This document shows, piece after piece, positions 23,692-40,629 of a DNA stretch of 64,000 nucleotides; position 1 is the stretch's first letter, and every line of letters begins with the position of its first letter. The notes under the pieces are model-generated. The model was not told the origin of the DNA and ran no database searches. It saw nothing but the letters and a program-made list of their open reading frames with translations. A program made the position numbers and the translations under genes. Source of the DNA: Lachnospiraceae bacterium AC2029 (GTDB lineage: Bacteria > Bacillota > Clostridia > Lachnospirales > Lachnospiraceae); assembly GCA_000703065.1 (NCBI GenBank), contig JNLK01000001.1, positions 310,001 to 374,000 on the forward strand, written 5' to 3'.

Positions 23692-25401
23692 CTACGCATT
23701 TCCCAGATAGGTGAAGCTTACCAGCGTGATATCATCATACTGTGCCGCTTCTCCTACGAAGCTGTCCACATGAGCCTTCACCCTCGCGATCAGCTCTTCA
23801 TCCTTTGTCGTACAGTCTTTATTCAGCGCTTCAAGCAGTCGGTCGTTTCCGAACCGCTCGCCGCTCAGGGCCTTCGCCTCCGTCACACCGTCCGTATACA
23901 GGAAGATCCTGTCGCCGGGTTCCAGACGGAAATGATACGGCACATGTCCCATTCCCGGAAGGAAGCAGATGGCCGGACCATGCTCGGTCTTTTCGATCCG
24001 GTACTTTTCATCCACGGACTTCTGCAGGATCGCCGGGAACTCATGTCCTGCGTTGCAGACATCCACCTCGCCGGTGGTCAGATCCACGATACCCAGCCAT
24101 GCAGTGACAAACATTCCCGCATCATTTGTTTCGGACAGCTTTTCCTCGACGAAGGTGATGATATCCACCGCACTGCCTCCCATAACGGTACGTGCCTTCA
24201 GAATGGTTTTGGAGATTGCCATGAAAAATGCGGCTCCCATGCCTTTATCGGATACATCCGCGATCAACAGGACCAGATGGGTATCATCCAGCATAAAGAA
24301 ATCATAGAAATCCCCGCCCACCTCTCTGGCCGGATGCATTATGGCAGCCACATCAAATTCTTTTCGTTCGGAGATAATGTCTCCCTTGGGAAGGATGCCT
24401 TTCTGAATATCCGACGCCAGGGAAAGCTCCGTCTCCAGTCGTTCGCTCTCTCTGGACATCTGCGCGATCTCGTCCATATTCTTCAGGGTATCCTCTTCCA
24501 TCTTATCGATGGATTCCGCCAGTACACGAAGCTCCGTGACATTGCCGACCGAATCGGTCAGATTTCCTTCCGCCTTGGCATTTTTGATTGCAAAACGATT
24601 TGCTTCCCTTGTCACATTCTTCATGGGTTTTACAACTCTGAGCCTGAGATACAGTCCGATGAACACTACCCCGGCCATAGCCATGCCCATACCCATGATG
24701 GTGATACCGATCAAATATCGCTGCCATGCGTCAACCATTCCCTGGATGGAACTTGTTATCACAAGAATGCCCCTTGGCGCATCTCCTTCAACTCCCAAAG
24801 CCCTGTAAAGGGTCATTGTGGCTCCGCCGTCCTCCTTATCCAGGTACCGATATATGACCCCTTCCTTCTCCTCAGAAGTCCAGAGGTTTTTAAGTATCGC
24901 GGTCTCCTCTTCCGACCCTGTCCGGAGCTCCTTTCCGAGCTCCGCTACCTCCAATATACCGTCCTCCGATACAAGCTCACCGAAAACGATATTGAAGGTG
25001 GAATAATCGGTTTCCTCCTTCGGAACGATGATCCGGAGCTCCCTGAGTTCCTGGGTAAATACGATACGGCTGAGGCGTGATGTAAGCATTTGATAGTAGT
25101 TGAAGGTCAGAACATCATCATCCGCCTCCCTTTGCTTAAGCTCATAAGTATCGGTGTGCCCCAGCTTATCCATCCTTTCCTTTCCCATTTCCAGGTAGGC
25201 GGAAAAATCCCAGTCCATTGAATCAGTAAAGGCTGCTTCCGCAACACGCCTCAGGAAAGCGGCATTCTCCTTCTTCATGGTCTGCGTAAAAACCTGATAA
25301 CCGAAGAATCCGATCATAAGCGTCAGGAGCGTCACCAGAATAATGATCGAGACAATGATCTTAATTGATAATCTGTTAAAAAAACGAAATACTTTTCTCA
25401 T
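23692..25401 (-). CDS. Membrane-bound SpoIIE-type PP2C serine phosphatase with HAMP domain
   Basis: A 569-residue protein. TM1 (about 13-35), an extracytoplasmic sensor region (about 36-235), TM2 (about 237-258), a HAMP domain and coiled coil (about 260-330), and a C-terminal PP2C/SpoIIE domain (about 340-569) with HPAREVGGDFYDFF, LLIADVSDKGMGAAFFMA, NAGHEFPAIL, FLYTDGVTEA and QYDDITLV. The metal-binding Asp residues are all present. Such enzymes dephosphorylate STAS anti-anti-sigma proteins in partner-switching pathways. No STAS or anti-sigma gene occurs in the window, so the substrate is encoded elsewhere. The start codon overlaps the stop of the permease-kinase gene (TAATG), indicating coupled expression. 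Confidence 0.92.
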   Translation of the reverse strand: MRKVFRFFNRLSIKIIVSIIILVTLLTLMIGFFGYQVFTQTMKKENAAFLRRVAEAAFTDSMDWDFSAYLEMGKERMDKLGHTDTYELKQREADDDVLTFNYYQMLTSRLSRIVFTQELRELRIIVPKEETDYSTFNIVFGELVSEDGILEVAELGKELRTGSEEETAILKNLWTSEEKEGVIYRYLDKEDGGATMTLYRALGVEGDAPRGILVITSSIQGMVDAWQRYLIGITIMGMGMAMAGVVFIGLYLRLRVVKPMKNVTREANRFAIKNAKAEGNLTDSVGNVTELRVLAESIDKMEEDTLKNMDEIAQMSRESERLETELSLASDIQKGILPKGDIISERKEFDVAAIMHPAREVGGDFYDFFMLDDTHLVLLIADVSDKGMGAAFFMAISKTILKARTVMGGSAVDIITFVEEKLSETNDAGMFVTAWLGIVDLTTGEVDVCNAGHEFPAILQKSVDEKYRIEKTEHGPAICFLPGMGHVPYHFRLEPGDRIFLYTDGVTEAKALSGERFGNDRLLEALNKDCTTKDEELIARVKAHVDSFVGEAAQYDDITLVSFTYLGNA

Positions 25402-28310
25402 TAACCACGGTCCTCCGCAGTCTGCCCCGCGATGAGACGCGCTATGGTCTCATACAGACGCTCCGGTTCAACGGGCTTGGACAGATGTGCATTCATTCCC
25501 GCCTGAAGAGAGCGTTCCACATCCTCATCGAAGACATTTGCCGTCATGGCAATGATGGGGATTGTTCCTGCATCCGGACGATCCATCGCCCGGATCGCCT
25601 TCGTTGCTTTCAGTCCGTCCATTACAGGCATGCGGACATCCATCAGGATAGCGTCATAATAGCCGGCCTTATTTTCAGAGAACTGCCTGACTGCTTCTTC
25701 CCCGTTGGTGGCGTGCTCGGCTTCAATCCCTTCCATTTCCAGAAGATCTGCCAGGATCTCCGCATTCTGCTCCACATCCTCCGCCATAAGAACTCTCCTT
25801 CCGGCAAGACCTGTTGCGGGAGAATCCTCCGGGATCCTCAGGCCATGCTCCGCATGCGCACTTCTGTGCGAGGTTTTCAGGCTTACGATCACCGTAAATG
25901 TGGTTCCCGATCCCTTCACGCTGTCCACCTGGATCTCGCCGTTCATCATTTCCACAAAATTCTTAGTGATGGCCATTCCCAGTCCGCTTCCGCCATACTT
26001 GTTCGTGGTGCCGGCGTCCTCCTGGGAGAAGGTCTCGAAGATCTTCGGGATATATTCCTCATCCATTCCGATCCCCGTATCACGCATGACGAACTTCATG
26101 GTACAGTGTCCCTCATATTCCGCCAGCTGTTCCACGGTCAGGGTCACACTGCCCGGAGGATCCGTAAACTTCACGGAATTGCCCAGGATATTGATCATCA
26201 CCTGCTTCAGCTTCATATCATCGCCATAATAATAATCGCTGACATGTCCCACGATATTGCATTCATAATGCAGTCCCTTATCCTGGCACTGGCCATTGAT
26301 GATGATATTGATCTGCTCCAGGAACTCGCGGAAGGAGAACTCCTCGTTCTTCAGCACCATCCGTCCGGATTCGATGCGGCTCATATCCAGGATATCGTTG
26401 ATCAGACCAAGCAGATGATTTGCGCTGGCGCCGATCTTCTCCAGGTGCTCCCTTGTCCTCGGCGTAAGCTCCGGATCCCTGAGAGCGATATTGTCCAGGC
26501 CGATGATGGCATTCATGGGCGTACGGATCTCATGACTCATATTGGACAGGAAGCTGGTCTTCGCCCGGCTGCTCTCCTCTGCCAAAGCCTTTTCAACCTC
26601 TATCTGTTTCTCGCGCTCCTGCATGATACTGTAGATCCGGAGAAGGATGATGAGGGAAATAACCACAAGTCCGATCTGGATGTAACTTGCAACATGCATC
26701 GACTGATCCACCCTGTCCAGCTCCGTCCGGATAAACTCTGCATGAGACGTATCCGGAAAAACTCCTGGGTCATGAGACGTATGGAAATCGTACAGAGTCT
26801 GTGAGGTCTGTTCTATCGCCTTGTCCGTGGTCTGATACATCCACACACAGGAGGTGAAAATGATAAGCCCCAGAAGAACCACCCACGCCACGATGGACCG
26901 GCCCAGCCGGTGCTCCTTATCCTTCCGGAGGAACAGACGGAAATACAGGAATCCGCCGATACTCCATACTGCCAGGATCAGGTACGACTCCGTAGAAAGT
27001 GTACTTACATCTATGATGTTGGGTATCAGGAATTCCAGTGCAAATAGCAGGGAAATGATCAGCCCCGCCATACCTGCGATCATATATTTCCTGTTCTTCT
27101 CCAGCCGTGCGGTCTTCCATGCCGAAGCCGAAGCCAGCGCATATGCTATGGTTGCACCAACCGTCGTAACATCCACGATCCAGCTGATGGCAGTCCTGCC
27201 AAAGAAGGGAAGGATCACTGAGACAGCAAGGATGCCCAGGATCGCATTTTTCGGAACAAATCTCCGGTTCGTCCTGCCGATCCACGCCGGGAACAGTCCA
27301 TCCCGGGAAAGAGAAGTAAGAAGACGGCTAAGCGCAATGTAATTGCCCACAAGACCGGTGAAGATCGCACCCAGGGCAGCCACGCCGAGGATCAGGCTTC
27401 CCGTGTCCCCGAGAGCGCTCTCGGCGGCATTGAAGGTCGGCTGGGATGCCGTACCGCTATAGTTCCCCAGATTTGACGTATAATCCACCCAGCTGCCGGT
27501 GCCCTCCGGATGAGCCGTAACCGCCAGCAGGGAAAGGAGGATATAAGCGACCGAAGCCATGATCACGGCTACAGCCATGATACGGAAGGATTTCTTCAGG
27601 GAGAATTTTGCTTCCGATGCTGAATGTGTAATGGACTCAAAGCCTACAAAGGCCCAGGGAGCCAGTGCGAAAATGGTGAAAACCCCGCTTCTGGCACTCT
27701 TGTCCGGTGAAAAGGCCGGTTCAAAACCATCGGTTCCGTTCTTTCCCACGGCGAATGCAAAGACGATCACAACGCCCACGAAAAGCAGGGCTGCCATAAT
27801 GATCTGGGTCCAGGCCGCAGGCTTCCGGAAAAAGCAGACCGATGCTGCAAGCACCAATGCTCCTATAGCCAGAAGGATCTCTCCAAGATAGATATCAAAG
27901 CCGGCGATCTGATATAGATATCCGAATTTGAAGGTGTCGCCTATAACCGTCCTCGCGATCAGCGGAAGCGCCGTGGCATTTGCCCAGATGATGGCAATGT
28001 AGGTGAGGATCAGGAACCATGCACTGAGGAACCCATGGTCATAGCCGAAGGCCTTCTTGGTGTAGGTGTAGATACCGCCACTATCCGGATATTTATTCAT
28101 CAGATAGTTGAAATTCACTGCCAGTACCAGCATCACCAGGCCGCCAAGTCCCAGACCGACGGCGGTTCCTATGGGACCTGCCACCGGTAAAAATGTATTT
28201 CCGGGCATCACAAAGGAGCCCCAGCCCACACTGCAGCCGAAGGCAAGGGCCCACGCCCCTGCCGCACCCAGGTATTTTCTTTTCTCATAGCCTGTATTTT
28301 CAGCACTCAT
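25401..28310 (-). CDS. Amino-acid permease fused to a hybrid histidine kinase (permease-HK-REC)
   Basis: A 969-residue fusion. Residues about 10-460 form a full APC-superfamily amino-acid permease with 12 helices (GAAGAWALAFGCSVGWGSF at helix 1, PWAFVGFESITHSASEAK near helix 6). Two further helices (about 470-490 and 545-565) enclose a loop of about 50 residues. HisKA (about 583-650) has the predicted phosphorylated His593 in NMSHEIRTPMNA; HATPase (about 690-810) has an intact N-box and GGSGLGMAI. A receiver (about 835-960) carries ILMDVRMPVMDG with the acceptor Asp near 890. The start at 28310 follows AAGAGG and lies 1 base after the HPt stop codon. This looks like a transceptor that signals transport or amino-acid availability; the substrate is not determined. 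Confidence 0.93.
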   Translation of the reverse strand: MSAENTGYEKRKYLGAAGAWALAFGCSVGWGSFVMPGNTFLPVAGPIGTAVGLGLGGLVMLVLAVNFNYLMNKYPDSGGIYTYTKKAFGYDHGFLSAWFLILTYIAIIWANATALPLIARTVIGDTFKFGYLYQIAGFDIYLGEILLAIGALVLAASVCFFRKPAAWTQIIMAALLFVGVVIVFAFAVGKNGTDGFEPAFSPDKSARSGVFTIFALAPWAFVGFESITHSASEAKFSLKKSFRIMAVAVIMASVAYILLSLLAVTAHPEGTGSWVDYTSNLGNYSGTASQPTFNAAESALGDTGSLILGVAALGAIFTGLVGNYIALSRLLTSLSRDGLFPAWIGRTNRRFVPKNAILGILAVSVILPFFGRTAISWIVDVTTVGATIAYALASASAWKTARLEKNRKYMIAGMAGLIISLLFALEFLIPNIIDVSTLSTESYLILAVWSIGGFLYFRLFLRKDKEHRLGRSIVAWVVLLGLIIFTSCVWMYQTTDKAIEQTSQTLYDFHTSHDPGVFPDTSHAEFIRTELDRVDQSMHVASYIQIGLVVISLIILLRIYSIMQEREKQIEVEKALAEESSRAKTSFLSNMSHEIRTPMNAIIGLDNIALRDPELTPRTREHLEKIGASANHLLGLINDILDMSRIESGRMVLKNEEFSFREFLEQINIIINGQCQDKGLHYECNIVGHVSDYYYGDDMKLKQVMINILGNSVKFTDPPGSVTLTVEQLAEYEGHCTMKFVMRDTGIGMDEEYIPKIFETFSQEDAGTTNKYGGSGLGMAITKNFVEMMNGEIQVDSVKGSGTTFTVIVSLKTSHRSAHAEHGLRIPEDSPATGLAGRRVLMAEDVEQNAEILADLLEMEGIEAEHATNGEEAVRQFSENKAGYYDAILMDVRMPVMDGLKATKAIRAMDRPDAGTIPIIAMTANVFDEDVERSLQAGMNAHLSKPVEPERLYETIARLIAGQTAEDRG

Positions 28311-28311
28311 A

Positions 28312-28680
28312 CTAATCCTCTTCGTACTGCCGGATTCCCTCTGCTGCTGTAGCATACATCTTTTCAATGGATGCGATCTCTGCCTTTATCTCTTCGTCCG
28401 AAAGCTTCCGCGGATTGCCGGGACGGAATTCCTCCGTAACCCTTGACGCCGCATCCGAAAGTGCGGTCAGACCCAGATTTGCACATACGCCCTTCATGGC
28501 ATGTCCCTTCTCAAAGAGTTCCGTCGGGTCCATGGTCTTTCCCGCTTCGATCAGGCCTTCCACTACTCCGTTCTTCGTAAGCTTACGGATATGCTTGTCC
28601 ACCAGCTTCTCCACCCGGAGAACCCGGAGTGCCTGATCGTAATCTCCACCGATATTTGCGTATAATTCCTGAAGTGTCAT
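28312..28680 (-). CDS. Stand-alone histidine phosphotransfer (HPt) protein
   Basis: A 122-residue helical protein. The HPt motif GHAMKGVCANLGL places the phosphorylated His at residue 60. It has no kinase or DNA-binding domain. It begins behind AAAGGAG with 9-base spacing and its stop codon is 1 base before the permease-kinase start. Such proteins shuttle phosphate between the receiver of a hybrid kinase and another receiver. Its position between two hybrid kinases makes it their shared relay partner; the final response regulator is not in this cluster. Confidence 0.92.
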   Translation of the reverse strand: MTLQELYANIGGDYDQALRVLRVEKLVDKHIRKLTKNGVVEGLIEAGKTMDPTELFEKGHAMKGVCANLGLTALSDAASRVTEEFRPGNPRKLSDEEIKAEIASIEKMYATAAEGIRQYEED

Positions 28681-28725: not shown

Positions 28726-30294
28726 CTATGTCTTTGATCTTCTGATCCATTCAATAAGTGTTGCATAAAGGAGATCAGAATCTATGGGTTTTACCAGATG
28801 GGCGTTCATGCCTGCATTGGCGGAATTCTCGATATCTACGTCAAATGCGTTCGCCGTCAGCGCGATGATGGGAATCCTCTTCACATCCTCCCGTTCCAGC
28901 TCCCGTATACTCCTGGCGGCCTCCAGCCCGTCCATGACCGGCATTCTGAGATCCATGAGGATGGCATCGTAAAAGGACTGCGCGGACCTCTCTATCATTC
29001 CGAGAGCGATGAGACCGTTCTCCGCATGCTCTATAACGGCACCCTCCAGCTCCAGAAGATCCCTGACGATCTCTGCATTTTCATCCACATCCTCCACTAC
29101 AAGGATGCGGAAGCCTGAAAGAGACCCGGCGTTCTCCTCTGTCCCGGCATATTCTTCGACTATGGTGCTGCCGGCATTCTCCTCTTTGCTGCCGGCCTTC
29201 TCCTCTTTGCTGCCGGCATTCTCCTCTTTGCTGCCGGCATATCCTTCCTTCGGTGCAGCATAGGAGAAGGGAACCGTGATGGTAAATGAGGATCCCTCAC
29301 CCTGTTTACTTTCGACGGAAATACTGCCCTTCATCAGTTCCACTTCCTGTTTCGTTACAGCAAGCCCCATGCCGCTTCCGCCGTACCGGTTCGTAAAGCT
29401 TTCGTCCTCCTGCGAGAAAAGATCAAATACCTTCGGAAGATATTCCTTACTGATGCCGAGACCGGTATCCTTCACCGTGAAGCGCAGCAGGCAGGATTCC
29501 CCGTCACCCTTGATCCGGTCCACCAGAAGACTCACATCTCCCGGAGCCGGCGTATACTTGATTGCATTGTCCAGCAGGTTCATGAGGGCCTGCTTCAGGA
29601 GCATACTGTCTCCCCGCAGTCCGTCATCCGCCTCCTTTGCGGTCACCATATGGAATCTTAGGCCCTTCTCCTCACAGAGAGTACGGGCCATGGCATCGAT
29701 CTGTTCCAGGTTCTCCCGGAGCGAGAAGGGGTCATCCTTCAGACTTCTCTTCCCCGATTCGATGTTCTGCATTTCCAGCGTATTATTGATAAGTCCCAGC
29801 AGATGTCTGCCGCTGCGTCCGATCTTTACCAGCTGTACCCTCGTCTCCTCCGGAAGATCCGTCCGGCTCAGGGCCAGCTGATCCAAGCCCAGGATCACAT
29901 TCATGGGCGTCCGCATTTCATGACTGATGCTTGCAAGAAATGCGTTCTTGGAACGGTTACTCTCCTCCGCAGCCATCAGCTCCGCCTCCAGGCGTTCACT
30001 CTCAATGATCTTCCGGGTAACCCGGCTGAGAAGGATCAGCATGATAAAGACGAAGATACTTCCTCCGAAGAGGATCCCGGCCATGACCAGATCCGGCTTG
30101 CCGAAGATCCCGACGACAAGATATCCCACAAGAAAGAAGCTGAGAAGAACGATCGGAATATACAGGATTGCTCTCCCCTTCTCCCATTTTCTCCGGGTAT
30201 CGACAAAACGGGCATACCGAATAAAGCCATAGATGTTATATACCATCAATGCACTTCCGAGAAATATGAGTACGTAGATCAGTAACTCGATCAT
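28726..30294 (-). CDS. Hybrid histidine kinase with C-terminal receiver domain
   Basis: A 522-residue protein. Three N-terminal membrane helices (about 4-20, 40-60 and 68-92), with almost no extracytoplasmic domain, lead into a coiled coil. HisKA has His125 in SISHEMRTPMNVILGL; HATPase (about 230-350) has NLLDNAIKYT and GGSGMGLAV. A low-complexity linker built on the repeat AGSKEEN (about 355-390) joins a receiver (about 397-517) with MDLRMPVMDG. The start at 30294 follows GGAGG by 8 bases; a longer frame has no site. It lies 45 bp upstream of the HPt gene in the same transcript. The small membrane part suggests it senses the membrane, or couples to another protein. Confidence 0.9.
   Translation of the reverse strand: MIELLIYVLIFLGSALMVYNIYGFIRYARFVDTRRKWEKGRAILYIPIVLLSFFLVGYLVVGIFGKPDLVMAGILFGGSIFVFIMLILLSRVTRKIIESERLEAELMAAEESNRSKNAFLASISHEMRTPMNVILGLDQLALSRTDLPEETRVQLVKIGRSGRHLLGLINNTLEMQNIESGKRSLKDDPFSLRENLEQIDAMARTLCEEKGLRFHMVTAKEADDGLRGDSMLLKQALMNLLDNAIKYTPAPGDVSLLVDRIKGDGESCLLRFTVKDTGLGISKEYLPKVFDLFSQEDESFTNRYGGSGMGLAVTKQEVELMKGSISVESKQGEGSSFTITVPFSYAAPKEGYAGSKEENAGSKEEKAGSKEENAGSTIVEEYAGTEENAGSLSGFRILVVEDVDENAEIVRDLLELEGAVIEHAENGLIALGMIERSAQSFYDAILMDLRMPVMDGLEAARSIRELEREDVKRIPIIALTANAFDVDIENSANAGMNAHLVKPIDSDLLYATLIEWIRRSKT
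29168..29240. repeat. In-frame 21-bp tandem repeat in the kinase linker
   Basis: Three and a half copies of CTGCCGGCATTCTCCTCTTT plus one base encode the heptad AGSKEEN between kinase and receiver domains. Copy number could change linker length without breaking the frame. Confidence 0.75.
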
Positions 30295-30400
30295 ATACAC
30301 GTCCTCCGTTCTTTCCGACAGGCCAAAAACCACCTGTCTCCCGGGTCACATACCTATCCTCTCCGGCTCCTTATGGTCTGCCGCATGCCCCCACCGGGTT

Positions 30401-33400
30401 CTATACTCCCGTCATCTTTTCTTCAGCTTCATAAATCAGCTCGCCCAGGGTCCGGATCAGAAGCTCCGCCTCCACAGGTTTATTCAAATGTGCGTTCATT
30501 CCGGCCTGCATGGAACGCTGGACATCTTCATCAAAGGCATTGGCGGTAAGTGCGATGATGGGGATCCGCTTTGCATCCTCCCTGTCCAAAGCGCGGATCG
30601 CCTTTGTTGCCTCCAGACCATCCATTTCCGGCATTCGTACATCCATCAGGATCGCGGAGTAGATTCCCTCCGTACTCTCCCTAAAGAGATCCAGGGCAAT
30701 CCTTCCGTTCTCCGCATGATCAACCTTGATATTCTCCAGCTCCAGCATATCCATCAGGATCTCAGCGTTCAGCTCCACATCCTCTGCCAAAAGGAGACGG
30801 CGCCCTGTCAGTCTTGCCTTCTTCTTCTCCTTGAAGATCGCCAGGTTGCTCCGACGTGCGATCCGTTCGATATTCTCAATGATATTTGATACAAACAGCG
30901 GCTTGGCAAGGAAGTTTTTCACACCGACACCTTCGGCTTCCTCACGGATGTCCTCCCAGCTGTATGCCGTCATGGCAACAACCACACACTCATCTCCATA
31001 GAGCTTCAGGATCTCCGCGGAAGCTTCCGGTCCGTTCATGCCCGGCATGTTCCAATCCATCAGAACCATATTGTAGTTCTGCTTTCTTGCATGCTGAACC
31101 TCCAGTCGGCTGAGTGCTTCCTGTCCGCTGGTGCAGGCATCCGCACGGATCCCCACCTCCTCCAGAACACTTCTGGCATGCTCTGCCTCAATGGGGTTAT
31201 CATCCACCACCAGGGCATAGATCGCATTGGGATCGATCTCGCCGGTATGCTCCGCATCCTTTTTCTCACTCTTTCGAAGCGTCACGACCACGGTGAATTC
31301 CGTACCGACGCCCTTCTCGGATTCCACACTGATGGAACCGTTCATCAGTTCCACAACGCTCTTCGTGATGGCCATGCCGAGACCGCTGCTTCCGTACTTC
31401 GAACCGTTTGCAACATTTTCCTGGGAGAAGGCTTCAAAGATCCTGGGCAGATATTCCTTATCCATTCCGATGCCGGTATCCTTAACGCGGAACTGAAGCG
31501 TTGCCTGATCCTCATACTCGGAGGTCTTGTCCACCGTCATCGTAACGCTGCCCGGCTCCTCGGTGAACTTGATGGCATTTGACAGAATGTTGAGGAGCAC
31601 CTCCTTCAGCTTCACATCGTCACCGATGTAGGAATCGTCCGCTCCATTCAGTACCTTGCACTCATACTGAAGTCCCTTGTCTCTGCACTGTGACATGACC
31701 AGTGTATTGATCTGCTCCAGCAGACTGCCCAGAGCAAATTCGCCCTTATGGAGGAGGACCCGTCCGGACTCGATCCGGCTCATATCCAGGATATCATTGA
31801 TGATGGAGCGAAGGTGCTGGGCACTGTCTCCGATCTTCTCCAGATATTCCCGGGTATCTGTATCGATATTCTCCTTCTTCAGTGCAAGTGTGTCCAGTCC
31901 GATGATGGCATTGATCGGCGTACGGATCTCATGACTCATGCCGCTGAGGAAGCTGGTCTTTGCCTGATTTGCCGCCTCCACCGAGGAAAGGGCATCCGCC
32001 AGGGCTTCACTCTTTGCCATGGCCTCACGCATCTCCGCATCCACATCCGTAAAGCCTATGATAATGTAATTCTCGTCACTCTCCATGCGGGAGACCTTCA
32101 TGCTGACATAGACCGGCTTCTCCCGGACCATACGCCGATAGGTCATGATGTAGGTATCCTTGCGGTCAAGGGTCTTCATCAGCTTCTTCCGGTTCATGGC
32201 CTGCAGGAATGCTTCCCTGTCCTCAGGGAAGACGTTTTCGGCGAGCTCCTTTTTGCAGTCGCTGAAGAAATGCCATCCGCGCCGTATCTCGGAAAGAGGG
32301 CTTCCCTCATCTCCCTTTCGGTACTCCGTGAATTCCTCCGTGTTTGTGTTGACACGGAACAATTCTGTATAATCCCGGGCCAGTGTCTGGGCGATATGAT
32401 TATACATAAGTCCTGTGGAGACGGCAGTTTCATAGGCCTCCTTCGTCAGGGCGTGTTCATGTTGGATCCTCACCAGATCCGTGATATCCTGACACATACC
32501 CAGGATACAGAGTCTTCCTGCAGTATCCGTATATTTCAGCTTTGTGGTCTGCAGCTGCAGCTGGTTACCCGCAGCATCCGGAACGTCTTCATAAAAGACA
32601 TAGGGCTTGGTGAGTGAAAGTGCGATCCTGTCATCCTCCCTGAAATGTGCTGCAATCTCAGGATCAAAGATTTCATCATCCGTTCGTCCGATCACACCCT
32701 CCGGAGTATCCTTACGGGCATACTCGGCAAAGGCCTGATTGCAGGTGAGATATTTTCCGGTCATGGCATCCTTCGTGAAGGCCATCCCGGGCATATTATC
32801 AATAAGAGACAGGAATCTGTCCTTCAGTTCGACGACCTTCTCCGCCTCCTCCAGTTCTCTTTTATGATCATCCTTTTCATCATTGATAACAAAGGCATGC
32901 AGCAGGCAGGTCCCCAGCATGTATGCGATGGAATACAGCGGAAGATACGGGAACCAGAGCTGAATCAGAAGACAGAGGACCATGATGATCCCAAAGGACG
33001 CCAGGATACGGAAACGCACACTCTCTCTTGTCCGGACTCCCACCCGGATCATGGACGCGATCGAATGAAGTACGATCATGCTCAGGAAGAGAATCTGACA
33101 AATCAGCATGACATAACGTGCCGGCAGCGCGGTATATACCGACTTCTTATCCACGGTAAAGAGCACCGGTGTGAAAATATTGACAATGGCCAGACCTGCA
33201 GTCAGCGTAGCGATGATACGTCCCAGTATGATCAGGAAATGCCCGTACGCATTGGATTCATGCAGATAGGCAACCGCATATTCCGCCCAGAAGGAGATTC
33301 CCACACCCATGACGATGAAATAAATGGTCGTATCGGAGAAAAGCGCCTTTGCCAGCTTCAGTTCCTCCAGGATTCCCCATAGAACATCCGTAACATAGTA

Positions 33401-33535
33401 CGCCAAAACCGCAAACAGAAATCTTCTGTACACGTTCCACGCGGCTTTCTCGTAAATCCGCGCATCATACAGAATATCCCAGTTCACTATAAAAAGTATC
33501 AGTATTGCAAGCAGACCTATCGCAGAATAATACAT
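30401..33535 (-). CDS. 7TM-PAS-histidine kinase with two receiver domains
   Basis: A 1044-residue protein. Residues 1-225 hold seven membrane helices. A PAS domain (about 245-360: LIDNMPGMAFTKDAMTGKYL, LCILGMCQDITD) is followed by a second sensor-like segment (about 365-500, with RRGWHFFSDC). HisKA has His535 in GMSHEIRTPINA; HATPase (about 625-745) has GSSGLGMAI. REC1 (about 765-885) contains VLMDWNMPGMNG and REC2 (about 905-1030) ILMDVRMPEMDG. The PAS plus second segment is closely similar to that of the neighbouring GGDEF protein, so the two proteins share an input module. The ribosome site is AAGAGGT, 8 bases upstream. It lies 29 bp after the GGDEF gene in one transcript. Confidence 0.93.
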   Translation of the reverse strand: MYYSAIGLLAILILFIVNWDILYDARIYEKAAWNVYRRFLFAVLAYYVTDVLWGILEELKLAKALFSDTTIYFIVMGVGISFWAEYAVAYLHESNAYGHFLIILGRIIATLTAGLAIVNIFTPVLFTVDKKSVYTALPARYVMLICQILFLSMIVLHSIASMIRVGVRTRESVRFRILASFGIIMVLCLLIQLWFPYLPLYSIAYMLGTCLLHAFVINDEKDDHKRELEEAEKVVELKDRFLSLIDNMPGMAFTKDAMTGKYLTCNQAFAEYARKDTPEGVIGRTDDEIFDPEIAAHFREDDRIALSLTKPYVFYEDVPDAAGNQLQLQTTKLKYTDTAGRLCILGMCQDITDLVRIQHEHALTKEAYETAVSTGLMYNHIAQTLARDYTELFRVNTNTEEFTEYRKGDEGSPLSEIRRGWHFFSDCKKELAENVFPEDREAFLQAMNRKKLMKTLDRKDTYIMTYRRMVREKPVYVSMKVSRMESDENYIIIGFTDVDAEMREAMAKSEALADALSSVEAANQAKTSFLSGMSHEIRTPINAIIGLDTLALKKENIDTDTREYLEKIGDSAQHLRSIINDILDMSRIESGRVLLHKGEFALGSLLEQINTLVMSQCRDKGLQYECKVLNGADDSYIGDDVKLKEVLLNILSNAIKFTEEPGSVTMTVDKTSEYEDQATLQFRVKDTGIGMDKEYLPRIFEAFSQENVANGSKYGSSGLGMAITKSVVELMNGSISVESEKGVGTEFTVVVTLRKSEKKDAEHTGEIDPNAIYALVVDDNPIEAEHARSVLEEVGIRADACTSGQEALSRLEVQHARKQNYNMVLMDWNMPGMNGPEASAEILKLYGDECVVVAMTAYSWEDIREEAEGVGVKNFLAKPLFVSNIIENIERIARRSNLAIFKEKKKARLTGRRLLLAEDVELNAEILMDMLELENIKVDHAENGRIALDLFRESTEGIYSAILMDVRMPEMDGLEATKAIRALDREDAKRIPIIALTANAFDEDVQRSMQAGMNAHLNKPVEAELLIRTLGELIYEAEEKMTGV

Positions 33536-33564
33536 AAACTGTACCTCTTATTTTCCTTACGTTA

Positions 33565-36500
33565 CTAATTCTTCTTTCTTGCCTTCAGATTGCTCTTGTT
33601 CTCATACATCAGGTGATCCGCACGTTCATACACCTGGGCCACCTTCTCATCATGATCGAACCTGGACATTCCGATAGCAATGACGATACCGCCGTTCTCC
33701 ACTGCATCGTCATTGTGTTCATTCATCTGCTGTACCAGACTGTCGAGACGCGCGAAATCATCTCCCTGTGCAAGTGCCACGAACTCATCTCCGCCCACAC
33801 GGAATACGGGGCTTCGTTTAAATGTGGTACAGATGATCCTGCAGGCATCCCTAAGATACTGGTCTCCTGCTTTGTGTCCCTCGTTATCATTGACCTTCTT
33901 CAGATCATTTACATCCAGGAGCACAATGGCGAATTCAGGCGCACGATCCATCTCGATCTGTGCGTTCAGACGTTCTTCATATACACGGTATGCGTTTCTG
34001 TTCTTTACACCGGTCAGGGCATCGATATTCGCCTCGATCCTTGCCTGTGCCAGACGTCTGCCGTATTCCTCCTCCTGACGAACCTGTGCATCGATATCGT
34101 TGACGCCGACGACCATGCGCCGTCCGTCCTGCTCCTCCACCAGAGCAGCCTTCAGCTGTACATAGCACGGCTCATCCTCCTTCATCAAACGGAAGGTCAG
34201 GGTGAAGATGCCGTTATTGTCGATCTCGGAAAGCGCATTTTCCATGGTAAGCGCCGTAAATACCCTGTTCTGATCCTCCGGATAAACCACCTTGATGATG
34301 CTTTCACGGAAGGCCGAGAAGAAATTCGGTCCCTCCTTCGGCATGGAAAATGCATCGAAGCCTGCCGATGAGCTGTATTCACGGTAAAGTCCGGTCTCAG
34401 GTACCGCAACATAGATGCAGAGGAATTCTCCGGCCAGCGCACTGACTCTGTCGTAGGCGGTCTGCTCCTCCAGCATCCGCTGTGCGGCCTGACGATGCTT
34501 CACCTGCTCATCCACATCCGTGATGCTGAGGATCAGATACCGTTCATCCTCCTGCATCCGGTTCACCTTCATGCTGACATACCTGGTTTCCTGACCCAGG
34601 TTGACCCGGAAGGTCATCGTGAAAATGCGCTCCTGATCCAGGGTGGCAACCAGTGTCTTCCGATCCAAGGCCCGACGCACTTCATCCAGGTCCTCCGGAA
34701 TCACATACTGCTCCGCCACATCCAGACATTCCTCGAAGAAATGCCAGCCCCTTCTCGTCTCTGCAAGACTGCCGTCCTCGGGATTCGTCCGGTATTCTAT
34801 GAACTCTTCCGTATTCACGTCGATATAGTACAGTTCCAGGTACCCATTTGCCAGTGCCTGTGCGATATAGGTGAAGATGACCCCGTCGGCCCGGGCCTTC
34901 TCGTAGGACTCCTTTGTTCCTGCATTCTCTCTTGAGATGCGGACACTGTCCGAAACATCCTGGAAGATTCCCAGCACACAGAGCCGTCCGTTGGGATCCG
35001 TATACTTCAGTCTGGTGGCCTTTACCTTCAGCAGATTGCCCTCGGCATCCTTCATATTGTCATAGAAGATCAGAGGCTCCTCCATGGTGAGCGCCGTTCT
35101 GTCGTCCTCCATAAAACGCTTTGCCGTCTCCTCATCGAAGAGTTCCTCCGTCGTGAGGCCCGCCACCTCGGAGGGATCCTTCTTCTTCACGTAATCCGCA
35201 AAGGCCTGATTGCAGACAAGGTATTTCCCGGTCTCCGCTTCCTTGGTGAAGTAAAGCCCCGGCATATTATCAAGAATGGAGGACACGGTCTGTTCCAGTT
35301 CCTCTATCTGTTTTGCTTCCTCCAGCATCTGTCTCTGCTTGCTGGCCAGACGTTCCACCCTGAGCTTCTGTCCCAGCAGGAAAAGGATCACCACGAAGAC
35401 TACCGTTAAGACAGCCAGAACCAGAAGCCAGTTATCCTTCAGAAACTGCCAGACGGAGGTCTTTCTCTCCGTGATCATATAAGAAGCCAGCGACGAATCC
35501 ATTTCCTCTCTTCTGGTGGTCAGTACGGATTTGTTCATCAGGAAATACACATCCTGATCCGACTTTCTGACTGCAAATGAGAATGGCAGTGACTCACCTG
35601 TCGGAACCGAATAAAGGTTCAGCTTATTCAGTGTTTCCTCCTCGGAAGGGATCCTGTAATTGCTGACAAGAGCGGCGTCAGCCTCTCCGTTTGCCACCGC
35701 CTCATAGCAGGCCGGAAGCCCCTGATAGGACACTCTCTTCGATTCCGGATAATAATCCATGATGAAGGACTCGATATTGTACATATTTGCATTGACTGCA
35801 AAGGTAAGCTTGCTTTCCTCGGAAAGCGTCTGACGGTCGGAGACACGCATGATAGCGTTCATTTCCGTCTCCATGGCGGGATCGGTGAGACGCATCCCCC
35901 GCCGGTCCGCATCAAAGGTGCTGACATATACCGGGAATACACAGTCAACCTCCCCTGCCTCCAGCGCCTTCAGCGCATCCTCCAGAGTATCGTAGGGAAC
36001 CGGCTTGAACTCCAGCTTCGGACTATTCAGATTATTCTTGGCCCGGGCCAGATAATCCTTCAGCGCTCCTGTCAGTTCTCCCGTCTCCTCGTCCGTTCCG
36101 CAGAAGGGGAGATAATCATCCCGATATCCGATCCGGATCTCACCATGCTCGGCGATCCAGTCCTCCTGCTCCGGTGCCAGCATCGCATGTGTCCTTGTGT
36201 TATACAGACGTTCCCTGGATATTTTCTCGTTGAAATACGGATCCGCGTCCTGAATCTCTGCCATGGCCATGTTCAGTTCATCCAGAAGATCCTTCCGGTT
36301 CTTGTTCACGGCATAGAAATAATCCGATCCTCCGATCCGGCTGACAGGGAGCACTGTCTGGTCAAAATCATAGGAGAAAATGGAGGCATATCCGTCCAGT
36401 TCCTTCTTAACGATCATATCCATGGACTCAGCCTCGGAAACCGTCAGTTCTACGATCTCAATATTAAGCCCATTCTTCTCGGCCCAGTTCTTCAGGAAAT

Positions 36501-36972
36501 CCTCCTGAATGCTGCCCTTATTCACACCGATCCTCTTCCCGTTGAAGGTGGAAAGGTCAGATGCCGCGATCTCCCGGTTATTCTTCGCGGTGAAGATATA
36601 GTACGCCTCGGTTCCCATGGGAAGATCGGAGAAATACATATACTCCTCCCGATCCTGCTTGTAGGATACATCACTGAGAAGATCGATCTCTCCGTCCTTC
36701 AGCTTCTGCAGAAGATTCGGCCAGCTATCCTCTACGTATTCAAAGGTCCAGCCGGTATAGGCAGATATCTTCTGATGATATTCGTAGTCGATCCCGCAGC
36801 GTCTTCCGAACCGGTCATAGTAACAGAAGGAGGAATCAAACCACCCCACGCGGACCACCTTCTGATCCTTTTCTTCCTCCGCAGACACCCGAAGCGGCAT
36901 AAATAATCCTGCAATAAAAGCAACCAGCAGGAGTAATATTATCATTCGTCTCGTATTTTTTTGTAGTCTCAT
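33565..36972 (-). CDS. Double solute-binding-protein/PAS/GGDEF diguanylate cyclase
   Basis: A 1135-residue protein. Signal peptide or TM1 (about 10-28); two consecutive type 3 periplasmic solute-binding domains (about 35-265, VVRVGWFDSSFCYYD; and about 275-500, IRIGYRDDYLPFCGTD), as in amino-acid-binding sensors; TM2 (about 513-535); PAS (about 560-680); the RRGWHFF segment (about 690-820); a third sensor segment (about 830-960); and a GGDEF domain (about 970-1130). The active-site GGDEF (residues 1060-1064) is intact, but the RxxD inhibitory site just before it is absent. It should make cyclic-di-GMP in response to an external ligand, probably an amino acid. It has its own promoter after a terminator and heads the six-gene transcript. 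Confidence 0.93.
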   Translation of the reverse strand: MRLQKNTRRMIILLLLVAFIAGLFMPLRVSAEEEKDQKVVRVGWFDSSFCYYDRFGRRCGIDYEYHQKISAYTGWTFEYVEDSWPNLLQKLKDGEIDLLSDVSYKQDREEYMYFSDLPMGTEAYYIFTAKNNREIAASDLSTFNGKRIGVNKGSIQEDFLKNWAEKNGLNIEIVELTVSEAESMDMIVKKELDGYASIFSYDFDQTVLPVSRIGGSDYFYAVNKNRKDLLDELNMAMAEIQDADPYFNEKISRERLYNTRTHAMLAPEQEDWIAEHGEIRIGYRDDYLPFCGTDEETGELTGALKDYLARAKNNLNSPKLEFKPVPYDTLEDALKALEAGEVDCVFPVYVSTFDADRRGMRLTDPAMETEMNAIMRVSDRQTLSEESKLTFAVNANMYNIESFIMDYYPESKRVSYQGLPACYEAVANGEADAALVSNYRIPSEEETLNKLNLYSVPTGESLPFSFAVRKSDQDVYFLMNKSVLTTRREEMDSSLASYMITERKTSVWQFLKDNWLLVLAVLTVVFVVILFLLGQKLRVERLASKQRQMLEEAKQIEELEQTVSSILDNMPGLYFTKEAETGKYLVCNQAFADYVKKKDPSEVAGLTTEELFDEETAKRFMEDDRTALTMEEPLIFYDNMKDAEGNLLKVKATRLKYTDPNGRLCVLGIFQDVSDSVRISRENAGTKESYEKARADGVIFTYIAQALANGYLELYYIDVNTEEFIEYRTNPEDGSLAETRRGWHFFEECLDVAEQYVIPEDLDEVRRALDRKTLVATLDQERIFTMTFRVNLGQETRYVSMKVNRMQEDERYLILSITDVDEQVKHRQAAQRMLEEQTAYDRVSALAGEFLCIYVAVPETGLYREYSSSAGFDAFSMPKEGPNFFSAFRESIIKVVYPEDQNRVFTALTMENALSEIDNNGIFTLTFRLMKEDEPCYVQLKAALVEEQDGRRMVVGVNDIDAQVRQEEEYGRRLAQARIEANIDALTGVKNRNAYRVYEERLNAQIEMDRAPEFAIVLLDVNDLKKVNDNEGHKAGDQYLRDACRIICTTFKRSPVFRVGGDEFVALAQGDDFARLDSLVQQMNEHNDDAVENGGIVIAIGMSRFDHDEKVAQVYERADHLMYENKSNLKARKKN

Positions 36973-37172: not shown

Positions 37173-39281
37173 TCACTCCGCCGGTTCCCGGTTCTCTCCG
37201 TAATATACGAATCCCAGCATGGTAATATCGTCAAACTGGTCAGCCTCTCCGACGAAGTCTGCGATGTTCTTCCGTACTGCAGGAAGTGTATCCGCAATGG
37301 TGGCGTCCTTCAGCGTGTTCAGTACATTTACGAGACGCTCCGACCCATACTGCACCAGATCCCGGTCGATTGCTTCCGGGATACCGTCCGTATAGACGAA
37401 CAGCCTGTCCCCGGGGTTCAGCTGCAGCTCATACTCATGATACTTCCTTCCTTCCATGACAGCCAGCGGAACGCCGTGCTTATCCTTCACATAATTATAA
37501 TCACCGCCGGCAGGCATCAGCACCGGATACTCGTGTCCGGCATTGGCGCACATCATTTTGCCGTTGGTCAGGTCGATGATACCCAGCCAGACCGTAACGA
37601 ACATCTCCGCCTCATTTCCCTCACACAGCGTTTCATTGGCACGCTCCAGGATCTCCGCGGTGGTAAGACCGGATTCCGCAAATCCTCGAATGGCGGTCTT
37701 GGCACGCATCATGAACAGCGCGGCGGGAATTCCCTTTCCGGACACATCCGCGATAACCAGCGCCATCTTGTGCTGATCCACGAAGAAGAAATCATAGAAA
37801 TCACCGCCCACCTCCTTCGCGGGATCCATGGTTGCATAGATCTCAAAGTCATTGCGGGGAAAGGTGTAATTCGTGGGCAGAACGGACGCCTGAATGGTTC
37901 GGGCAAATTCCAGTTCCTGCTCAAAGCGCTTCTCCGCAGCCTCGATATATCCCTTCAGCACGGTCACCGTCTGGTTGATATCATCGGACAGCGAAGCAAA
38001 TTCCGAGGAATTCCGGACGCTGACCACCTCGTTCAGATTACCCTGGGTGATACGACCCAGCGACTCATTTACCAGCTCCAGATTGTTCACGACGATTCCC
38101 TGAACCAGCATGGAGATCAGGACATAGACTACGGCGAAAAGGATGATCGCCGCAAAGACGGACTCGTAGGTCTGGGCATCCCTGTCGGCGTATACCTCTT
38201 TGACAGGAAGAGTGACCATCAGAGTATGACCGTCCTCCCAGGTCTCATAACGACAGAAGGATTCAAAACCGAAATAATTCCCCCTGTAGACCTCGTTCGG
38301 ACCCTTTTCCTCCATGAGCTTTTTGTCGTTGGTAGCCAGAGAGATCCCCTCATGGGTTCCGGAGATGATCTTCCCATCGGACTGGATCAGATCGAAGGTT
38401 CCGGAGGTTCCCACATGGAAGTACGACAGAGACTCGCTGAGCTCCGGCACGGCCTCTCCTATGATATCCACATCGTCCTCGATCTTCTGCAGCTGCTGAT
38501 GGGTCTGCCGGATATCCGCGGAGGCCGCGATCAGCGTATTTGCCGCATTTTGCTCCGCCGTTCTGGTCTGGACACTCAATGTGAACAGAAGATTCAACGT
38601 CAGGATCGTCAGGGTCACGCCGAACAGCCAGATCTGGAACTTCCGGGAAACCGGGATCTCCTCCTTCTGGATCTTACGGAAGGGATTCCGCCACTCTCCT
38701 GCACTGATCTTCAGGGCAAGGGCGGTCGCCACCATACCGAGGCCGGTGAAAATGATCATCGGCGGCGAGCAGGTCTTTACCACGTAAAACGCCATGCTCA
38801 TGTCGTCCCGGTGCGTGATGAAGACCACGTACATATGGAAGACCTCCATCACGGCGCCCATGAAGAATGCGTAGACCGCAGAGGGCTTCTTCCGCTTAAA
38901 GAGAACGATGCTCATCGCCGCGGCGATGAAGCCGGCCAGACAGGTGGACACACTGCAGGCGATACGGGTGTAGCTTCCCACGCCCCAGTAGGTTCCCGCG
39001 ATGAAACGCTCGATTCCGCCGATCAGGCCCGCCAGGATACCTGAAACAGGATCAAAGAACAGACCCGCCGACAGCGGTCCCATATCTCGTACGTTCAGCA
39101 TCATATCGCTGTAATCCACTCCGAAATGGGTGGACAGGATGGCGCATCCGCCGTAGATCACGCCTATGATGATCTTGCCGGGCACGGAAATGCGCTTCCC
39201 CCTGGTCCGTCTCCAGATCAGGGTTGTAAGCAGCACGTACAGCGCCGTGACCAGCGTCATTTTCAATATCATTGAAACCAT
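37173..39281 (-). CDS. LytS-type 5TM sensor fused to a SpoIIE-type PP2C phosphatase
   Basis: A 702-residue protein. Residues about 1-195 carry six hydrophobic helices with the 5TM-5TMR_LYT signature (NVRDMGPLSAGLFFDPVSGI, GGIERFIAGTYWGVG). TM (about 213-235), an extracytoplasmic sensor (about 236-370), TM (about 375-398) and a HAMP domain (about 400-450) follow. The C-terminal PP2C/SpoIIE domain (about 470-695) has MDPAKEVGGDFYDFF, LVIADVSGKGIPAALFM, NAGHEYPVL, FVYTDGIPEA and QFDDITML. All metal ligands are present. It resembles the phosphatase at 23692-25401 only in the catalytic part, so two different inputs would converge on STAS-type substrates. The ribosome site is TAGGAGA. A terminator follows it, making it a separate transcription unit. 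Confidence 0.92.
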   Translation of the reverse strand: MVSMILKMTLVTALYVLLTTLIWRRTRGKRISVPGKIIIGVIYGGCAILSTHFGVDYSDMMLNVRDMGPLSAGLFFDPVSGILAGLIGGIERFIAGTYWGVGSYTRIACSVSTCLAGFIAAAMSIVLFKRKKPSAVYAFFMGAVMEVFHMYVVFITHRDDMSMAFYVVKTCSPPMIIFTGLGMVATALALKISAGEWRNPFRKIQKEEIPVSRKFQIWLFGVTLTILTLNLLFTLSVQTRTAEQNAANTLIAASADIRQTHQQLQKIEDDVDIIGEAVPELSESLSYFHVGTSGTFDLIQSDGKIISGTHEGISLATNDKKLMEEKGPNEVYRGNYFGFESFCRYETWEDGHTLMVTLPVKEVYADRDAQTYESVFAAIILFAVVYVLISMLVQGIVVNNLELVNESLGRITQGNLNEVVSVRNSSEFASLSDDINQTVTVLKGYIEAAEKRFEQELEFARTIQASVLPTNYTFPRNDFEIYATMDPAKEVGGDFYDFFFVDQHKMALVIADVSGKGIPAALFMMRAKTAIRGFAESGLTTAEILERANETLCEGNEAEMFVTVWLGIIDLTNGKMMCANAGHEYPVLMPAGGDYNYVKDKHGVPLAVMEGRKYHEYELQLNPGDRLFVYTDGIPEAIDRDLVQYGSERLVNVLNTLKDATIADTLPAVRKNIADFVGEADQFDDITMLGFVYYGENREPAE

Positions 39282-40557: not shown

Positions 40558-40629
40558 TGGGGTATCGCCAAATGGTAAGGCAACGGACTCTGACTCCGTC
40601 ATTTCAAGGTTCGAATCCTTGTACCCCAG
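40558..40629 (+). tRNA. tRNA-Gln (anticodon CTG)
   Basis: A 72-nt cloverleaf. Acceptor arms TGGGGTA/TACCCCA, D arm TCGCCAAATGGTAAGGCA, anticodon stem ACGGA/TCCGT with loop CTCTGAC (anticodon CTG), T arm CAAGG-TTCGAAT-CCTTG, discriminator G. CCA is not encoded. The 3' half is duplicated at 42966-43011. Confidence 0.95.

Follow-up and report, generated by a model that had tools for sequence, protein, structure and literature searches.

Two neighbouring genes were analysed in a 64,000-nucleotide stretch of the genome of Lachnospiraceae bacterium AC2029, a rumen bacterium (contig JNLK01000001.1, positions 310,001 to 374,000), here called the window. One encodes a predicted hybrid histidine kinase (K) and the other a predicted diguanylate cyclase (C). 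In window coordinates both are on the minus strand in head-to-tail order, C then K, with 29 bases between them (Table 1). Both proteins carry the same cytoplasmic cassette of two tandem PAS-type domains, and the copies in K and C are paralogous through an old duplication. In related genomes the pair stays linked and the N-terminal inputs in front of the cassette are exchanged. The kinase and GGDEF motifs of the window are intact. It is suggested, with a probability of about one in two, that the tandem-PAS module ties a phosphorelay and the synthesis of cyclic di-GMP (c-di-GMP) to one intracellular cue.

An earlier note on this DNA had described one sensory cassette of about 250 residues, a PAS domain and the segment after it, aligning almost throughout between the two proteins. 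The near-continuous alignment was confirmed. By BLASTP, residues 224-512 of K match residues 546-834 of C with 139 of 289 positions identical (48%), 200 of 289 similar and no gaps (293 bits, E 4e-87). A weaker second match, between K 351-610 and C 817-1084 (74/280 identical, 26%, E 3e-15), takes in X2, a further repeat of the second domain that C carries at about residues 840-960. Two stretches can be aligned at the DNA level, one of 338 columns (67% identity) and one of 81 (70%). PAS domains are widespread and diverse in sequence, but a chance or generic PAS resemblance is extremely improbable given the strength of this gapless match and its specificity. At E<=1e-12 the first domain (PAS1) of K alone (115 amino acids) has no more than three matches in the whole 3.86-Mb genome, namely K, C (57%) and an unlinked kinase at C1:2595081 (55%), which is not the behaviour of unrelated PAS domains. 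At the same threshold it matches none of 397 other genomes sampled across the phylum.

The cassette is homologous as described, although it consists of two domains rather than one, a PAS domain followed by a second, PAS-like domain (PAS2, or X). The second also occurs without PAS1: the whole cassette has 14 matches in its own genome at E<=0.001, of which three are full-length and 11 cover the second half only. An unlinked hybrid kinase, L011 (C1:2595093-2595830), has a PAS1 that is 55% identical to that of K and a very different second domain. PAS1 therefore also travels without the second domain of the cassette.

PAS1 is a PAS_4 domain (PF08448), scoring 37.3 bits in K and 38.9 bits in C with a gathering cutoff of 23.1, and PAS_4 was matched at E<=0.01 in 125 of 126 cassette relatives. 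The X domain of K has no Pfam match, PAS families included, and PAS_3 was found at E<=0.01 in 4 of 66 relatives. Structure prediction had been proposed as a check in the earlier note. The AlphaFold2 model of X (66 sequences) has a predicted local distance difference test score (pLDDT) of 90.3, a predicted template modelling score (pTM) of 0.80 and the core order EEE HHH EEE, which is the PAS order. Among solved structures compared by VIA, the closest is the LOV-HK PAS domain 6ph4 (Z 10.7, 128 residues, root-mean-square deviation 3.1; next Z 9.4), and the PAS domain of a diguanylate cyclase, 3h9w, gives Z 9.2 over 93 residues (deviation 3.0). In a Foldseek search of the Protein Data Bank (PDB), PAS/LOV proteins rank first (best E 8.9e-5). 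By sequence, the search for solved relatives of X returned a single match, at E 0.97. Judged by the fold of its model, X is a PAS domain that is mostly missed by Pfam profiles. The model of the two domains together has a pLDDT of 81.9 and a pTM of 0.48, so their relative placement is not trusted.

When the cassette profile was compared with the PDB at E<=1, only three VqmA sequences and an HD-domain sensor protein were found, all over PAS1 (E 4e-4 to 2e-3). Chains of VqmA are also among the best fold matches of PAS1 (VIA Z 12.8-13.4, and 13.0-13.4 for chains from V. cholerae). The redox cysteines C48-C63 of VqmA (PMC7387800) were tried as a model for the cysteines C265 and C343 of the cassette and dropped, since C265 aligns to a non-cysteine of VqmA.

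The X domain is a repeat unit. Without PAS1 it is present in the AC2029 genome as one copy in L015 and L016, two in L012 and three in L013 and L014. A GGDEF domain is also present in L012, L013, L014 and L016; our reading of the sequences adds an EAL domain in L012-L014 and a kinase in L015. The GGDEF/EAL proteins with tandem X copies lie at 1265000-1272000 (L012), 1097500-1105000 (L013) and 137500-144500 (L014) of this genome. The X profile was matched at E<=1e-8 in 7 of 299 sampled phylum genomes, its own included, and four of these belong to this family.

From a contig scan, the best 80 of 451 relatives were kept (L058-L137); the query was led by K and the sample is therefore biased to K-like cassettes. 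They are mostly rumen isolates and metagenome-assembled genomes (MAGs), for example Eubacterium ruminantium and Lachnospiraceae bacterium AC2031, NE2001, YSB2008 and LC2019. Among 61 genomes, 37 of the genus and 24 of other families of the order, a cassette match at E<=1e-20 was found in 29, all within the genus, many of which have the second domain only. The cassette is present at E<=1e-30 in 11 of 397 family genomes, its own included, with up to 6 candidates scored per genome.

The operon survey comprised 81 loci, these 80 and the window, and K is present in 78. C adjoins K in 69 loci, and also in L075, where it is split by a frame break. In seven the contig ends less than 1500 bases from K; only L133 has room yet no C, so 70 of 71 testable loci are paired. 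Both N-termini are readable in 67 pairs, which show three combinations: solute-binding protein (SBP) domains on C with a seven-transmembrane region (7TM) on K in 48, 7TM on C with a permease on K in 13, and SBP on C with a permease on K in 6. An identical input on both proteins, including 7TM with 7TM, was not seen among the 67. The 7TM was found on 54 K and 14 C, and one permease branch on 22 kinases and one cyclase, L135. This K-form permease is a separate branch from the permease-kinase of the window, with 2.4 and 2.6 changes per column either side of the midpoint. The permease probe further matches two cyclases that are not in the permease tree, L049 and L056. On the tree of the X2 and GGDEF core of the cyclases, the N-terminal module changes at least 7 times (parsimony minimum). 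It is clear that 7TM, dual SBP and amino-acid permease inputs have been exchanged around a constant cassette, and the domain shuffling within the operon claimed earlier is well supported. The further claim, that the same input drives kinase and cyclase, fails for the N-termini, which differ within pairs, and applies to the cytoplasmic cassette only. That one cytoplasmic cue drives both outputs is plausible.

The conservation count covered 79 K and 73 C rows; of the 160 rows, 8 whose type was different or unclear were left out. In K numbering, Cys265 is found in 152/152 rows and Cys343 in 151/152; the counterparts in C are Cys587 and Cys665. A total of 26 cassette positions are at least 95% identical in both groups, and three are fixed differently in K and C at 85% or more in each (H/R359, D/G388, S/E425). 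PAS1 averages 57-68% identity to that of K in L011, L033, L034, L051, L052 and L053, where the second domain fell to 19-25%. Pairwise averages were taken from 35 of 48 window-type loci, picked by hand. In K the mean identity is 0.74 for PAS1, 0.62 for the 7TM, 0.58 for the kinase core and 0.68 for the receivers, and in C it is 0.63 for PAS1, 0.79 for GGDEF, 0.67 for the first SBP and 0.59 for the second.

These figures bear on a different role for the cassette, as a ligand-free connector in which a dimeric PAS-PAS relay would couple whatever sensor stands at the N-terminus to whatever output follows. Dimerisation and signal transmission are common among PAS domains, and a sensor-neutral relay would explain why the inputs in front of the cassette can be swapped while it stays. 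PAS1 of C is also no better kept than the first SBP and is below GGDEF. However, PAS1 of K is better kept than the 7TM, kinase core and receivers, when linkers without sensing usually drift, and the two cysteines are near-invariant in both proteins. A pure connector is considered unlikely, and less probable than the shared-cue reading.

The phylogeny of the cassette in related genomes, also proposed earlier, supports an old duplication. In a 160-row tree, made by a quick method and with long-branch warnings for outlying rows, the 79 K cassettes, 7TM and permease types together, form one clade with a support of 100, nested among paraphyletic cyclases. A 60-row tree, built by the quick method without an outgroup, splits K (23 rows, support 100) from paired C (31 rows, support 96) and places six K-less cyclases between them. 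Because these K-less cyclases fall between K and paired C, the cassette was probably born on a cyclase and copied once to a kinase, on a root that we infer. A crossover within the cassette was considered for the 7TM-cyclases, whose PAS1 is nearer to K and whose second domain is nearer to C; placing them with K is not rejected (approximately unbiased test, p-AU 0.177), and the crossover is one possibility only. The kinase-core tree separates 7TM-type from permease-type K only in part, since the permease type and 7 of the 7TM type share a supported 29-row set.

Identity between K and C was also compared within and across loci (56 pairs), giving 0.618 for same-locus and 0.606 for cross-locus PAS domains and 0.473 and 0.470 for the second domain. 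Recent gene conversion between the two cassettes was rejected on the near equality of these values. The same values, with 48% identity between K and C of the window and the three differently fixed positions, would suit paralogues that have sensed different cues since the duplication and are alike by ancestry only. The 26 positions fixed alike in both groups argue otherwise, and this sub-functionalisation is rather improbable, more so than the connector.

In the window, K has the sequence features of a hybrid histidine kinase, a HisKA domain with its H box (SHEIRTP), N, G1 and G2 boxes and both receiver aspartates, all intact, which fits a kinase predicted from its motifs to autophosphorylate. 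C has a GGDEF domain with an intact GG(D/E)EF motif, and cyclase activity is predicted. The RxxD motif is the inhibitory site of diguanylate cyclases and not a defining feature; a motif check found it missing from the C sequence FKRSPVFRVGGDEF. GGDEF is kept by C in 65 of 67 pairs, the exceptions being L072 and L081. In L072 (4123-7203, an uncultured isolate record) the GGDEF core is missing between the start and end motifs of the cyclase.

The claim that the input feeds a phosphorelay agrees with the window but not with the whole family. When six ATP-site residues were checked, they were intact in 22/22 assessable permease-type K and in 34/50 of the 7TM type; the loss in 16/50 against 0/22 gives a Fisher p of 0.0016. 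In 9 of the 16 failing K the ATPase block is missing between a stub of the dimerisation and histidine phosphotransfer (DHp) domain and the receivers, with one frame kept (L073, L094, L110, L115, L119, L123, L127, L130 and L131, from sequences and, for L073, L119 and L127, tblastn). The ATPase is present but degraded in the other 7. The records of L110, L119, L127 and L130/L131 are not marked as MAG, and L130 and L131 are a pair of copies from the same genome. Strain AC2031 is an example with an ATPase-less orthologue. All 16 retain both receiver aspartates, and 14 retain the phospho-acceptor histidine. The 16 include L081, whose contig is probably rearranged (its cyclase breaks inside the cassette and its K lacks the first helices), and without it the count is 15/49; they also include L115, where only a GGDEF fragment at the contig end stands beside K. 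Set aside as not assessable were L124 and L126 (stub end), L067 (in-frame stop), L058 and L095 (contig or frame ends) and the permease-type L082. L093 passes the test without a phospho-acceptor histidine, and L101 passes though its boxes look eroded. On the tree of 7TM and cassette the kinase state changes at least 10 times, and well-supported branches force 6 changes. We infer that the direction is loss, with regain from a neighbouring kinase as the alternative. The H, N, D and G residues are present in 18/18 permease-kinases tested. That permease-type K are spared as the sole kinase of their operon is only suggestive, the branch-length-scaled chance of no loss being 0.05-0.20.

In two sister rows, L124 (7254-8981) and L126 (4467-6140), K consists of the 7TM and cassette and ends after a degenerate DHp stub. 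Both truncated K adjoin a cyclase with a GGDEF motif, and a different sensor kinase gene follows directly. Dead K show 3 violations of the cassette invariants (10 rows x 26 positions) and intact K show 10 (30 rows x 26), in a comparison of the 10/16 dead and 30/34 intact K that have a non-duplicate cassette row under their locus name. It is conceivable, though unlikely to about the same degree as the connector, that the cassette of K is kept for heterotypic pairing with that of C, K serving the cyclase, or the other kinase of the operon, as a co-sensor subunit. Such pairing would account for the cassettes of dead K and for the reduced K of L124 and L126. It also agrees with K being almost never without C (70/71), when C does occur without K, as on the retrieved DNA of the cyclases L135-L137 and in four family genomes with 7TM- or permease-cyclases and a single cassette match each at E<=1e-30 (G099, G344, G366, G414). 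However, co-occurrence is expected from co-transcription as well, the non-cassette kinase downstream in L124 is 52% identical to the C-terminal half of K and could be the partner there, and 34/50 of the 7TM-type K keep all six ATP-site residues. An extended form of this idea is a doubtful one, on a par with sub-functionalisation. The cassette would be an assembly and sensing module, and heterotypic PAS pairing would keep the 7TM-cassette protein as a partner of the cyclase and of the phosphorelay of the permease-kinase. The kinase domain of this protein would be dispensable and repeatedly shed, down to a bare 7TM-cassette subunit in the two sister rows, and the module would couple c-di-GMP synthesis to the phosphorelay.

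In the shared-cue reading, the cassette probably arose on a cyclase of the form 7TM-cassette-GGDEF and was then duplicated onto a neighbouring hybrid kinase. The pair would have been inherited since, with the membrane or extracellular inputs in front (7TM, dual SBP, permease) exchanged. PAS1 of both proteins may bind one common small molecule or redox cue, a putative ligand suggested by the two near-invariant cysteines and by nearest solved relatives that include the small-molecule receptor VqmA. A ligand like 3,5-dimethylpyrazin-2-ol (DPO) is a lead only, by analogy. The intracellular cue would adjust both the phosphorelay of K, the histidine phosphotransfer protein (HPt) and the permease-kinase, and the c-di-GMP synthesis of C, and each protein would add its own outside signal, in the window through the 7TM of K and the two SBPs of C. 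The two receivers of K and the free HPt would fit a multi-step phosphorelay shared with the permease-kinase. In relatives, a K without its ATPase may serve as a co-sensor that accepts phosphate from the permease-kinase by way of HPt, or may act by pairing.

Several observations weigh against the shared-cue reading. The kinase output has been lost repeatedly while the cassette persisted, so control of an autokinase is not what preserves the cassette in those species. The second domains have diverged more, with a K-C average of about 46% against 57.5% for PAS1, and the invariance of residues fits a structural or dimerisation role as well. The 160-row tree does not resolve the paired C cassettes as a single clade, since groups of 5 and 61 stand beside K at an open fork, and it puts four more kinases whose PAS1 is related (L011, L033, L034, L053) far outside K. 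PilZ gave 0 matches in the AC2029 genome at E<=0.001, against 40 for GGDEF.

Some parts of this arrangement are known from other systems. BifA is a phosphodiesterase. In Pseudomonas aeruginosa the hybrid kinase SagS and the c-di-GMP enzyme BifA have similar sensory domains, reportedly interchangeable in function (PMC6669338). The shared domain described there is periplasmic, whereas here it is a cytoplasmic tandem PAS, the genes adjoin, the enzyme is a cyclase and the N-terminal inputs change. In K and C, likewise, a kinase and a c-di-GMP enzyme share one kind of sensory domain. For CckA of Caulobacter, we know of no cyclase that shares its PAS pair. CckA is a hybrid kinase with two cytoplasmic PAS domains, as in K, one of which mediates control by c-di-GMP (PMC4853435). 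DivL, also of Caulobacter, is a PAS-bearing kinase homologue without kinase activity that acts as a sensor in a phosphorelay (PMC4211667), and may be compared with dead K. The present case differs in that ATPase loss recurs within one orthologous group. Kinases and c-di-GMP enzymes with a common sensor, hybrid kinases in which tandem PAS domains go with a link to c-di-GMP, and pseudokinases are already known. As far as searches show, what is new is a pair of adjoining genes in which the cassette stays constant, the inputs are permuted and the kinase is lost again and again, and no earlier description of such a K-C pair was found in the open-licence literature searched.

Sensors of the BvgS/EvgS type have two Venus flytrap domains, a PAS domain and a kinase. 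C resembles them in its two SBP_3 domains, transmembrane segment (TM) and PAS, and the BvgS PAS domain (6zj8, Z 12.7) is one of the closest matches by fold; the output is GGDEF in C and a kinase in theirs. VqmA (6ide, 6ugl), a PAS_4 receptor of the autoinducer DPO, is the best solved match of PAS1 by sequence and among the best by fold. It is, however, a transcription factor, and the likeness is one of fold and weak sequence resemblance only. CbrA (PMC7096432), a transport protein fused to a sensor kinase, is similar to the permease-kinases here, its transporter being of the SLC5 type and theirs an APC-type amino-acid permease.

The operons form a natural series in which a sensor pair is constant, outside inputs are permuted over two outputs and the kinase output has been removed several times. 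This makes testable the role of a cytoplasmic PAS pair common to a phosphorelay and a c-di-GMP enzyme, and also the survival of a hybrid kinase as a non-catalytic co-sensor. In addition, a PAS-fold domain mostly missed by Pfam profiles occurs in arrays in this genome and its relatives.

Table 1. Features of the K-C pair and of the adjoining genes, in window coordinates
Feature	Position	Strand	Basis
Gene K, hybrid kinase, 1044 amino acids: 7TM - PAS1 - PAS2/X - HisKA - HATPase_c - receiver (REC) - REC	30401..33535	-	Open reading frame (ORF); Pfam
K N-terminal 7TM, residues 4-217	32885..33526	-	Hydropathy; related genomes have cyclases with a homologous 7TM
K PAS1, residues 247-355, first half of cassette, with the conserved Cys265 and Cys343	32471..32797	-	PAS_4 E 3.5e-9; AlphaFold2 model; conservation
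K PAS2/X, about residues 380-502, with RRGWHFF and YVSMKVSRM, second half of cassette	32030..32398	-	AlphaFold2; VIA; no Pfam match
K HisKA, residues 525-591	31763..31963	-	Pfam
K HATPase_c, residues 638-753; deleted or degraded in many orthologues	31277..31624	-	Pfam
K two receiver domains, about residues 768-885 and 915-1028	30452..31234	-	Response_reg, two stretches; first boundary approximate
Gene C, predicted cyclase, 1135 amino acids: SBP - SBP - TM - PAS1 - PAS2/X - X2 - GGDEF	33565..36972	-	ORF; Pfam
C two SBP_bac_3 domains, about residues 48-242 and 265-500	35473..36831	-	E 7.1e-26, two stretches; second boundary approximate
C PAS1, residues 569-677	34942..35268	-	PAS_4 E 1.1e-9; aligns to K PAS1
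C PAS2/X1, about residues 702-824	34501..34869	-	K-C alignment; X profile E 9.1e-51
C X2, about residues 840-962, extra copy of second domain, not in K	34087..34455	-	X profile E 5.6e-47; within weaker K-C match
C GGDEF domain, residues 981-1128; motif GGDEF at residue 1060	33589..34032	-	Pfam E 3.3e-22; motif
Upstream gene, 5TM-LYT - SpoIIE phosphatase, 702 amino acids	37173..39281	-	Pfam
Downstream gene, second hybrid kinase HisKA-HATPase-REC, 535 amino acids, without cassette	28726..30333	-	Pfam
Downstream gene, free-standing HPt, 122 amino acids, HxxKG motif	28312..28680	-	Hpt E 4.7e-6; motif
Downstream gene, amino-acid permease (APC) fused to HisKA-HATPase-REC, 988 amino acids, without cassette	25401..28367	-	Pfam

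The 7TM region of K has no Pfam match at E<=1. Of the 48 window-type loci, 17, counting the window, also have a cassette-free permease-kinase next to the pair, and an HPt gene was found on the retrieved DNA in 13 of these 17. The permease-kinase of the window (25401-28367) is an APC permease with a hybrid kinase; in relatives a second, distant APC branch is found on the cassette kinase and on the cyclase L135. The kinase/cyclase cluster is flanked by two SpoIIE-type phosphatases, one with a 5TM-LYT sensor (37173-39281) and one at 23692-25401 (-). A tRNA gene is present near the cluster, at window positions 40558-40629 (+).

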